DNA of 45,523 nt from a virus: the IMG/VR virus record IMGVR_UViG_3300031857_000372, positions 1 through 45,523 of that record; one strand, written 5' to 3'. Made by a program: the position numbers and the translations under genes. Below are positions 3,337 through 43,027 of the stretch, piece by piece. Numbering within the stretch: the stretch's first letter is position 1; every line of letters starts with the position of its first letter. The notes under the pieces were generated by a model, which was not told the origin of the DNA, made no database searches, and was given only the letters and a program-made list of their open reading frames with translations.

Positions 3337-3370
3337 TTGACTCTCACAGGGTTGTGTGCGGGATTGCACT

Positions 3371-3394
3371 CGGGAGCCCTCCGCAGAAGGCTCC
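3371..3394. repeat. Small inverted repeat
   Basis: GGAGCC and GGCTCC pair across a 10-nt loop between two leftward genes. No U-run follows on either strand, so it is not a typical intrinsic terminator; it could still stabilise an mRNA end. Confidence 0.35.
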
Positions 3395-3399
3395 GGGGT

Positions 3400-3603
3400 T
3401 CACTCGCGCAGCTTTCGCTTGATGTCGCCTGCCAGATGCTTGCTGGCGAACTGGCAGGACGGCGTGAGGCTGCAATGCACCTTCCTCCTGTTCGGCAAGA
3501 CGATCTCGATGTGACCTTTGCCGGTGGTGCCCAGCAGCACGTCGCTGACGGTGAGGTTGTTCTTCTTGAGGGCCACGACCACATGCTCGGGGATTCGCTT
3601 CAC
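3400..3603 (-). CDS. Small basic protein
   Basis: 67 residues from GTG 3603, with GGAGCG 7 bp upstream and promoter P2 further upstream. Basic, with IEIVLPNRRKVHCSL and two Cys; resembles a HicA-like or small nucleic-acid-binding fold in composition (KRIPEHVVVALKKNNLT), but no motif decides this. It is the only gene before a 63-bp gap. Confidence 0.55.
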   Translation of the reverse strand: MKRIPEHVVVALKKNNLTVSDVLLGTTGKGHIEIVLPNRRKVHCSLTPSCQFASKHLAGDIKRKLRE

Positions 3604-4487: not shown

Positions 4488-5219
4488 ATGAGCCTCGAAC
4501 AGACCCTCGCGCAAACCAACGAACTGCTGACCAACCTCATCAACATCCTGAACACCGGCATCCAGGCCCAGGGCACGCTCGGCAAGCCCGAAGTCGCCGT
4601 CGCCGAGACCACGAAGCGCGGCCCGGGTCGCCCCAAGAAGGACGCCGCCGCGCCCGCTGAGAAGCCCGCTGGCACGGTCTACTGGCATGTGCCGCGCTAC
4701 AACACCGTCTTCGCCCAGGAGCCGGGTATGTCGGCCCCGACGAGCGACGACGCGGTGCAGATCACCCAGGAGGAATACATCGCAAAAAAAGCGGAGCAGG
4801 TGCGTCTGACGGACGCCGCGATTGCCAACCACTCGAAGCCCGCGACCACCACCTCTGCGACGCCCTCGCCGAGCCCGGCCCCTGCCCCTTCCCAGCCTAC
4901 TGCCGAGGTGGCGGTGGCCGCTGCGCCCGCTCCGAGCACCGCGCAGCCGGCACCCCAGCCCAGCACGGACCAAGCTGCCGCTGCCAACTCTGCCAGCGAT
5001 GACGTGCCCTTCTCGGCGGTCATGGAAGCCGCCAAGGCCGTCAACGGTGTCCCCGGCAAGGGTCGCGAACTGCTGATGGGCGTGCTCAAGTCGCTGCTGC
5101 CCAACGAAGCACAGCCGACCGTGACGAAGCTGCAAGGCAACGTGGCGAACAGTGCGGCCGTGGCCGCTCTGAAGGCCGCTCTGCCTGCCGCCGAAGCCGA
5201 CTTCGATCCGCTGGCCTAA
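4488..5219 (+). CDS. AT-hook, Ala/Pro-rich early protein
   Basis: 243 residues from ATG 4488 with GGAG 7 bp upstream; first gene of the rightward operon. The N-terminal 30 residues form a helix. KRGPGRPKKD at about residue 44 is an AT-hook-like minor-groove binding motif. Residues about 115-170 are a low-complexity Ala/Pro/Ser/Thr linker, followed by a helical C-terminal domain ending ADFDPLA. Its position just ahead of the DUF2800 and DUF2815 genes suggests an accessory role in DNA replication or recombination, which is inference. Confidence 0.7.
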   Translation: MSLEQTLAQTNELLTNLINILNTGIQAQGTLGKPEVAVAETTKRGPGRPKKDAAAPAEKPAGTVYWHVPRYNTVFAQEPGMSAPTSDDAVQITQEEYIAKKAEQVRLTDAAIANHSKPATTTSATPSPSPAPAPSQPTAEVAVAAAPAPSTAQPAPQPSTDQAAAANSASDDVPFSAVMEAAKAVNGVPGKGRELLMGVLKSLLPNEAQPTVTKLQGNVANSAAVAALKAALPAAEADFDPLA

Positions 5220-41827: not shown

Positions 41828-41855
41828 AAAAAAGAACCCGGCACAGGGCCGGGTT
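41828..41855 (-). terminator. Intrinsic terminator of the non-coding unit
   Basis: Minus strand: AACCCGGC (41855-41848) pairs perfectly with GCCGGGTT (41842-41835) around a 5-nt loop, followed by C and UUUUUU (41833-41828). It separates the tRNA/RNA block from the gpW-like gene. Confidence 0.88.
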
Positions 41856-41903: not shown

Positions 41904-41978
41904 ACCCTCAAGTCTGCCGCCACCCGCTTAGGGCCTGCCTTCTTGGACAGGAACAGGAAGCAGCAGACTTGAAGGTTG
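41904..41978 (-). repeat. 75-bp hairpin repeat, copy 1
   Basis: Identical over 75 bp to 42066-42140, 162 bp away. On the minus strand CCTTCAAGTCTGC pairs with GCAGACTTGAGGG (13 bp, one U-G), with inner GCTT/AAGC and CCTG/CAGG helices. The U-G pair is a C-A mismatch on the plus strand, so the minus strand is the likely RNA. Confidence 0.85.
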
Positions 41979-42069
41979 AGGGTTTTGGTGGGGATCGAAC
42001 CCACACGCGAGCCGTTACCGGCATCGCCCCCATATCATTGGGGTGGCTGTACCTATTCGCCTACAACCC
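41979..42069 (-). tRNA. Class II tRNA-like element, anticodon probably GAU
   Basis: 91 nt between the two 75-bp repeats. T-arm GTGGG-TTCGATC-CCCAC is canonical. D-arm GGC-GAATAGGTACA-GCC resembles leucine tRNAs. A long variable arm (CGA-T-GCCG-GTAA-CGGC-TCG) marks class II (Leu/Ser/Tyr). The anticodon arm CCCCA-ATGATAT-GGGGG has U33 and GAU, an isoleucine anticodon, but its last stem pair is A-G; 6- or 8-nt loops are alternatives. Acceptor GGGTTGT/AAAACCC has one mismatch and an extra C. No CCA encoded. May be non-functional as a tRNA. Confidence 0.5.
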
Positions 42070-42140
42070 TCAAGTCTGCCGCCACCCGCTTAGGGCCTGC
42101 CTTCTTGGACAGGAACAGGAAGCAGCAGACTTGAAGGTTG
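42066..42140 (-). repeat. 75-bp hairpin repeat, copy 2
   Basis: Perfect duplicate of 41904-41978. Its left end supplies the first bases of the class II tRNA-like acceptor stem, so repeat and tRNA-like element overlap by 4 bp. Confidence 0.85.
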
Positions 42141-42292
42141 CCCCTTACGGGAGCAAATCGGCACTCACTGAAACCCTTACGGCTGTGCTCGCCTGTCGCC
42201 ACGTCTTTCAGTTGACGCCCGAGCGTTAGACGACTCATCTCGGGAATGCTGTTTTTACGGCAGTTGGTTGCCAGCCCGTCAGCAAGAATCGT
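42141..42292 (-). other. Structured non-coding spacer
   Basis: No gene. Several stem-loops can be drawn: ACTGAAA/TTTCAGT across 34 nt and CCCGAG/CTCGGG across 15 nt. The word CCCTTACGG occurs twice. Probably part of the same non-coding transcript. Confidence 0.5.
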
Positions 42293-42362
42293 TGGCGCCC
42301 CTAGTGGGAATCGAACCCACCCACTGCACCGATAGACAAGTCAGCCGTGACCGATCCGGGGC
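42293..42362 (-). tRNA. tRNA-like element with reduced D-arm
   Basis: 70 nt including an encoded CCA. Acceptor GCCCCGG/TAGGGGC pairs at five positions plus G-U with one mismatch; discriminator G. T-arm GTGGG-TTCGATT-CCCAC is canonical. Only 33 nt remain between positions 10 and 48 (39 is usual). The best anticodon arm GCTGA/TCGGT has an 8-nt loop CTTGTCTA, so TGT (Thr) or GTC (Asp) readings are both possible. It may be a degenerate or specialised tRNA. Confidence 0.45.
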
Positions 42363-42372
42363 GTTGAATTCT

Positions 42373-42448
42373 TGGTTGCGAGTGCTGGATTTGAACCAAC
42401 GACAATCGGCGTATGAAGCCGCTGCTCTACCAACTGAGCTAACTCGCA
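42373..42448 (-). tRNA. tRNA-Met(CAT)
   Basis: Complete cloverleaf with encoded CCA: acceptor TGCGAGT/ACTCGCA, D-arm GCTC-AGTTGGTA-GAGC, anticodon arm GCGGC-TTCATAC-GCCGA, T-arm GTTGG-TTCAAAT-CCAGC, discriminator A. The T1-A72 pair argues against an initiator. CAT can also mean an isoleucine tRNA after lysidine modification. The only defect is G27-A43. Confidence 0.92.
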
Positions 42449-42450
42449 CC

Positions 42451-42993
42451 TTTAAGACAGCCCACTGCTCTCCCACCGAGTACGGTGCTTCCCCTTGCGG
42501 AGCGGCCCCGATCATGGGCCGTAGTTTGGGCTGACTTAAAAGTAGAGTGCCGCCGCTATGCGCTGCGCCTTGTGGAGACCACGAACTGTGGAGGGAACGG
42601 CGGCACTCTAGGGATGGCTGTGAACCCTGGTTTGCTCGATCTACTTGAGGCGGGGTTCAATCCGCTTTCTTCGATCTTGCGGCGTCGTCGGATTTCCGCC
42701 CGCGTTTCGCCCCAGCAGCCATCTCTAGAAGGTCGCCCGTCTAGTCTGAACCTCTCGCTGTCAGCGTAGCGCCCAAGTTTTAGCCGTTGGGGTGGCTTTG
42801 ACAGATGGCGCTGTCGCGCCCTCTTGTCCCTGTTCGTGCCGGTCTTCCCCGACTGCCATCTCGCTTTCTCTGGCTTGTGGCCCCAAGGAGAACGGGTCCG
42901 CGCTTCCTCACCAGCTTTGGGGGCTTTGCCTGCCGGCTAACCCATCTTTCAACTCTTTGGCGTTACCGCGTAGCGGGGTTGTGCATCGACAAG
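42451..42993 (-). ncRNA. Large structured non-coding RNA candidate
   Basis: About 540 nt with no leftward reading frame, between promoter P6 and tRNA-Met. Helices: 42451-42464/42527-42540 (13 of 14), 42543-42555/42598-42610 (13 perfect), 42609-42620/42716-42727 (11-12), 42621-42627/42653-42659 (7), 42780-42786/42934-42940 (7) enclosing 42787-42792/42881-42886 (6) and 42803-42809/42855-42861 (7). On the minus strand there is a GCAA tetraloop in CUCC-GCAA-GGGG, and unpaired stretches are A/G-rich (GAAA, GGAAG), as in real structured RNAs. Some helices have G-U on the plus strand instead. Resembles GOLLD/ROOL in size and context; family unproved. Confidence 0.7.
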
Positions 42994-42999
42994 GACTTC

Positions 43000-43027
43000 A
43001 CTCTATCGCATTTGCTAAAGGTGTCAA
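43000..43027 (-). promoter_or_regulatory. Leftward promoter P6 of the non-coding unit
   Basis: Minus-strand -35 TTGACA (43022-43027), 16-bp spacer and -10 TAGAGT (43000-43005), the closest match to the sigma-70 consensus in the window. TAGGGTTTGCACC (43031-43043) lies 3 bp upstream and overlaps the terL stop codon. Predicted start near 42993. Confidence 0.78.

Follow-up and report, generated by a model that had tools for sequence, protein, structure and literature searches.

Giant phage RNAs of the GOLLD and ROOL kind have one conserved global secondary structure and form homo-oligomeric assemblies made only of RNA. The put RNA of phage HK022 works differently, causing factor-independent antitermination by binding RNA polymerase. 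GOLLD and ROOL are phage-borne, hundreds of nucleotides long, and adjoin tRNAs, with the tRNA sometimes lying inside (PMC12286853). In HK022, putL is located between cI and the left operon, and put is defined by its own sequence and two-stem structure (PMC9378689). HDV-like theta ribozymes also adjoin phage tRNAs, according to one report (PMC10879173).

Here we analyse a non-coding interval on the minus strand of a viral DNA of 45,523 nucleotides, the whole of which is called the window below. The interval lies between terL (45218-43041; PHROG terminase large subunit) and a gene for a 74-residue head-tail adaptor (41744-41520), with the portal gene at 41523-39553, all on the minus strand. An earlier note on this DNA had proposed one large ornate RNA at 42451-42993, perhaps of the GOLLD or ROOL type. 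That this region makes up a structured unit of non-coding RNA can be said with high confidence. It is probably an optional, modular phage operon of RNAs and tRNAs, and we have moderate confidence in such an operon rather than one giant RNA.

The unit resembles GOLLD and ROOL in being phage-borne, hundreds of nucleotides long and tRNA-linked, but it is a modular chain of hairpins with swappable cargo and no evident shared global fold. Like phage tRNA islands it has a tRNA-Met and tRNA-like elements in one operon; here, however, long clamp hairpins separate the tRNAs and the tRNA-like cargo is irregular. With theta ribozymes it has in common that small structured RNAs are linked to phage tRNA genes, as the same report describes (PMC10879173). 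Rfam 15 was searched at gathering and relaxed thresholds. Among matches up to an E value of 10 in the region only tRNA was found, everything else being far below the cut-offs, and no ribozyme family matched in the loci scanned. The GOLLD and ROOL covariance models matched neither the region (E up to 10) nor four relatives (at gathering thresholds), which gives an assignment to these families no support. Searches of phage DNA collections with the window's unit gave best matches that, among those listed, were all at the tRNA, while one relative's unit gave none. The unit adds a phage-encoded, tRNA-linked structured RNA that is described by no Rfam family.

Relatives were found by TerL searches in viral contigs (given L-numbers here) and genomes. 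The nearest cultured phages by TerL identity are Acidovorax phage ACF1 (64%) and Curvibacter phage PCA1 (60%), and the matches in genomes include Glaciimonas and Cupriavidus, which suggests that the hosts are Burkholderiales.

Organisation of the unit

The unit covers about 1.16 kb of the minus strand, from a promoter at 43027 to a rho-independent terminator at 41835. The order of modules is a leader, long hairpins 1 to 3, tRNA-Met, tRNA-like element 2, and then the copies of a 73-nt hairpin. The minus strand has no evident gene from terL to the head-tail adaptor, in line with the earlier note, which had seen no leftward ORF over about 540 nt, and six ORFs tested here gave no match to any PHROGs family. 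A protein-coding explanation was therefore rejected, there being no recognisable frame that could be a conserved protein.

The promoter (TTGACA-16-TAGAGT, 43000-43027) is of the sigma-70 type. It is the best-scoring site in the whole window (12.1, against 11.2 for the runner-up), in agreement with the earlier claim that the RNA is started by the best promoter present, and from its position transcription would start near 43027. A dyad-like sequence, AGCAAATGCG (43016-43007), overlaps the promoter and is a possible operator for a phage regulator. The sequence GCAAnTGCGATA recurs behind terL in relatives; most of their unit promoters carry it, or a close form, across the spacer and the -10 region. 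It is an imperfect dyad, and may also be an operator. The dyad-like form seen at 43016-43007, CGCA-N2-TGCG, also overlies the spacer of the promoter that follows terL in several phages. At the other end the unit is closed by the terminator AACCCGGCCCTGTGCCGGGTTCTTTTTT (41855-41829), which consists of AACCCGGCCCTGTGCCGGGTT followed by CTTTTTT.

The 5' leader (42746-42993) has no excess folding as a whole (z +0.12, with 102 of 200 dinucleotide shuffles as good). The stretch 42745-42449 folds much better than its shuffles (z -4.0, 0 of 200 as good), and so does 42448-41835, which lies beyond the end given in the earlier note (z -7.6, 0 of 20). For the whole 592-nt stretch the value is modest (z -2.0) and that of the plus strand is similar (z -1.9), so that fold energy alone was rejected as proof, which has to come from comparison with relatives.

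Long hairpins 1 to 3 abut, each beginning about where the preceding one finishes. Hairpin 1 (42606-42730) has the stem TTCTAGAGATGGCTG/CAGCCATCCCTAGAG. Hairpin 2 (42543-42610) has a perfect 13-bp stem, TAGAGTGCCGCCG/CGGCGGCACTCTA, and is the only perfect hairpin of at least 13 bp with a loop of at most 150 nt in the whole window. Hairpin 3 (42448-42543; stem ACTTTTAAGTCAGCCCA/TGGGCTGTCTTAAAGGT) ends at the tRNA. The region had been described as holding at least seven long helices, some perfect over 13 bp. The perfect stem at 42610-42543 and the stems on either side of it (42730-42606 and 42543-42448) are indeed there; the half at 42993-42746 folds no better than shuffled sequence.

The tRNA-Met (CAT anticodon, 42373-42448) was called by ARAGORN and scores 65.5 bits with the Rfam tRNA model, above the gathering score; CCA is apparently encoded after the acceptor. 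The RNA had been thought to end here, and hairpin 3 does stop at the first base of the tRNA, but the unit continues past it with two tRNA-like elements, two hairpin copies and the terminator (41855-41835). The interval 42451-42993 thus includes a part without excess structure, and misses the second half of the unit.

tRNA-like element 2 (42296-42363) has a T-arm and a GGGGC-G-CCA 3' end, with no canonical D-arm; its match to the Rfam tRNA-Sec model (20.7 bits) is below the gathering score of 47. It is related to a sequence in contig L212 (about 4536-4610). The 73-nt hairpin is duplicated (42138-42064 and 41976-41904), giving long hairpin 4 (42064-42138, base ACCTTCAAGTCTGC) and long hairpin 5 (41904-41976). 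A short hairpin, TGCTCC(CGTAA)GGGGCA (42139-42155), abuts hairpin 4. Between the two copies is tRNA-like element 3 (41980-42068), which has a long variable arm and an irregular anticodon loop, is conserved in L003, and scores 25.6 bits with the Rfam tRNA model, below the gathering score of 29. Both elements could be decaying tRNAs. It is worth adding that the window and L212, whose TerL proteins are 64% identical, share element 2 together with its encoded CCA and a conserved string, GACTTGTCTATC, and that element 3 is strongly conserved between the window and L003 (about 3350-3440), with an anticodon loop that is 6-nt or irregular.

The P2 hairpin

The leader contains a small hairpin, here called P2, with the sequence TGGCA-GTCGG-GGAAGA-CCGGC and a fully paired stem (42831-42861). 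Its consensus is TGRCR-stem-GAAAGA-stem, in which the stem covaries, and over 100 viral contigs contain it. The relatives L003, L006 and L067 have forms of CACCYCGGAA(n)AGACGRGG in common, and a scan of viral contigs with this pattern gave at least 120 stretches. An invariant G two bases upstream, outside the query, and the usual TGA or TGG before the pattern make chance unlikely. At sites of the form [TG]G[AG]CA-N5-G[AG]A(n)AGA-N5 the stem is fully paired in 122 of 138, most of the paired sites having been fetched using the CCYCG stem. Paired stems that were not selected in this way are GCCTG/CAGGC, GCCGG/CCGGC, GCCCG/CGGGC, CCGTG/CACGG, TCTCG/CGAGA and, in the window, GTCGG/CCGGC.

A covariance model, R1, was built from 30 P2 sites, leaving out the window and L002, the input sequences being picked also for a paired stem. 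Its best match in the window is 42861-42831 (19.0 bits, E 0.0026; the next has E 0.25). The window copy is a weak variant, seen in the unfiltered model search and missed when the genome was searched on its own. Eleven relatives gave eight matches with E below 0.01, all within the unit. No Rfam family overlaps P2 at gathering scores in the loci tested, and no description of its sequence was found in the papers searched. Among 200 genomes of the Cupriavidus family there was one match, which resembles an ordinary terminator, and P2 was therefore rejected as a genomic element of the host.

P2 is located on the sense strand of intergenic leaders. Promoters scoring above 10.5 were found upstream of 30 of 115 sites in the sense direction, compared to 4 of 115 in the antisense direction, and the distance from promoter to P2 is usually 83-195 nt. 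The genes downstream are unrelated, coding for a SNF2-type helicase, DNA polymerase A or the small terminase, or are tRNAs. Terminators downstream are not enriched (12, against 7-10 per 100), and the idea that P2 is an attenuator was rejected for this reason; what suggests antitermination is the position of P2.

In that position P2 resembles put, which is also an RNA element in a promoter-proximal untranslated phage leader, and in Klebsiella phage ST101-KPC2phi6.3 it occupies the place of putL, with cI on one side and the left operon on the other. The sequence and loop of P2 are different, and no P2 match was found in the HK022 region. Homology was rejected because P2 has neither the sequence nor the two-stem structure of put (PMC9378689), and the likeness would be one of function only. 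By this analogy P2 may be an element near the promoter that affects RNA polymerase or the stability of the RNA.

A wider reading, which we put forward tentatively, is that P2 is a virus-restricted RNA signal, present in many phages that are not related to each other, by which host RNA polymerase is modified or the leaders of early and untranslated phage transcripts are protected, and that in the window it stands at the head of a new class of modular RNA operon with tRNA mimics as exchangeable cargo. Somewhat less probable is that P2 is an RNA-processing element, either a nuclease site or an unknown ribozyme, that separates the modules of untranslated transcripts. In various phages it is found between tRNAs or modules, or a little ahead of ribosome-binding sites, which would fit this; the bias towards promoters would not, nor would the lack of any Rfam ribozyme match in the loci scanned. 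The question is of some importance, as P2 precedes very different genes and tRNAs in over 100 viral contigs and is effectively absent from the 200 genomes of the host family. An action on RNA polymerase would make it a common phage equivalent of put RNA, which is rare; as a processing signal, it would help to account for the way in which phage tRNA and RNA operons are cut.

Several further features were noted. Some contigs have two P2 copies 100-250 nt apart, and in many a YAACAnGnATGrGnnTTG element lies downstream; examples of P2 among contigs L071-L192 are L178:240-480, L123:2325, L163:5410 and L186:1323-1467. Between two copies in L178 (339-421) there is a sub-threshold match to IMES-4 (30 of 48 bits), which was rejected since it was not repeated in 36 records, although the control genomes gave no match either. 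In a group resembling enterobacterial prophages (L094, L105, L122, L125, L171, L172, L076 and L136) P2 ends a conserved leader of about 200 nt, with a tRNA-Arg 73-136 nt downstream. In the Uetakevirus phages phiV10, SPN1S and BUCT711 (L193, L194 and L195) P2 again lies between the genes for the terminase and the head-tail connector, but it is on the other strand.

Relatives, stem covariation and the nature of the unit

Hairpin units are found behind terL in the window, in L002, L003, L006, L008, L015, L045, L067, L224, L252, L255 and L266, and in ACF1, at least ten related phages having the unit in the same slot behind a similar promoter. In several other relatives no more than 49-90 nt precede the adaptor gene, and others have longer intervals without such hairpins; PCA1 lacks the unit. 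Its length in relatives ranges from about 0.3 to 1.4 kb, and the number of hairpins varies.

L002 is nearly identical to the window across terL and portal. In its hairpin 1 the stem is kept and the loop is different. The tRNA-Met is also kept, and a different tRNA block replaces tRNA-like element 2, bringing its own P2 copy (TGACG-GCGTG-GAAAGA-CACGC), which is directly 5' of a long hairpin that encloses a tRNA-like T-arm.

The units differ in length and number of hairpins and could not be aligned as wholes. MAFFT misaligned groups among the compact units, and stems were therefore compared using arms extracted by hand. Two styles of stem can be recognised. Style A (base CYTTCAAG...CTTGARRG) comprises 13 stems with 95.1% of cells paired, and style B (base CCATCA...TGATGG) 6 stems with 96.4% paired, percentages that are biased upward because the arms come from hairpins found by a stem search. 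In style A, which mixes different hairpins of one array and so compares helices that are only partly orthologous, 10 of 14 pairs have changed on both sides, and the covariation score is 0.60, against 0.20 when shuffled and at most 0.20 in slid registers. In style B 9 of 14 pairs are doubly changed and the score is 0.74. Comparable positions also covary, as in hairpin 1 of the window (CTAGAGATGGCTG/CAGCCATCCCTAG) and its counterpart in L003 (CAAGAGAGTGCGG/CCGCACTCCCTTG). Position 9 of style A is often mismatched, and the wobbles are U-G on the transcribed strand, which fits a function as RNA rather than DNA. A short hairpin abuts the 5' side of the long stem (P3) in 10 of 20 cases, compared to 8.7% at control positions.

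These comparisons show that the hairpins are under selection for pairing. Helix covariation in homologous phages had been named as a check to make, and with the stems covarying, the unit present in relatives and no recognisable protein frame, the reading as a conserved, structured, tRNA-linked phage non-coding RNA stands.

On the basis of the sequence comparisons, we propose that the unit is an operon devoted to non-coding RNA and tRNA in a phage of the lambda type (with a gpA-like terminase). The slot that it occupies, between the genes for terL and the head-tail adaptor, is optional. RNA polymerase would start near 43027 and make one RNA of about 1.16 kb ending at 41835. This RNA would be a string of modules, with variable cargo enclosed by long clamp stems (P3) of 13-27 bp. 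The short hairpin P2 often abuts the 5' side of a clamp, and tRNA and tRNA-like elements lie between or inside the stems. The clamps may insulate the cargoes of this untranslated transcript, so that each folds on its own. The tRNAs would be released by RNase P and other nucleases; P2, as a promoter-proximal leader element, would act in cis on elongation or RNA stability in a put-like manner; and the products would supply tRNA or tRNA-like RNAs during infection.

Two other explanations of the unit are both unlikely, to a similar degree. The first is a single giant RNA, a third class beside GOLLD and ROOL, functioning as a whole fold and perhaps as a multimer or cage around tRNA cargo. The size, the phage setting, the adjacent tRNA and the tRNA-like cargo inside hairpins are all similar. 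However, the relatives share a promoter, modules and a style of stem, with no one global architecture evident among them; they differ several-fold in length; the first 250 nt have no excess folding; and compact units such as L045 and L255 have a single long hairpin. That L002 has exchanged the inside of one hairpin also speaks against the one large ornate RNA proposed earlier. The second is a decaying tRNA island with selfish or recombinogenic hairpins, that is, a hot spot for cassette exchange in which the hairpins have no function as RNA. This would account for the exchange of cargo between phages that are almost identical, for the exact copies of a repeat, for the irregular tRNA-like elements and for the unit being optional, but is difficult to reconcile with the strong stem covariation, the wobbles on the transcribed strand, the recurring promoter and terminator, and the fact that diverged phages have kept tRNA-like elements 2 and 3. 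A packaging role, or a cos, pac or similar DNA-level site adjoining terL, is suggested by the position between terL and the head-tail adaptor, and is very improbable because many relatives have only 49-90 nt there, and because P2 is also found away from terL in other phages.

The modular operon can be tested, since ACF1, a phage in culture, has a related unit. Its promoter is TTGACGGGCGTTTCGCAATCGCGATAAT, and the unit also comprises two long CCTTCGAG hairpins, a terminator and a gene annotated as 'tRNA-Ala'.
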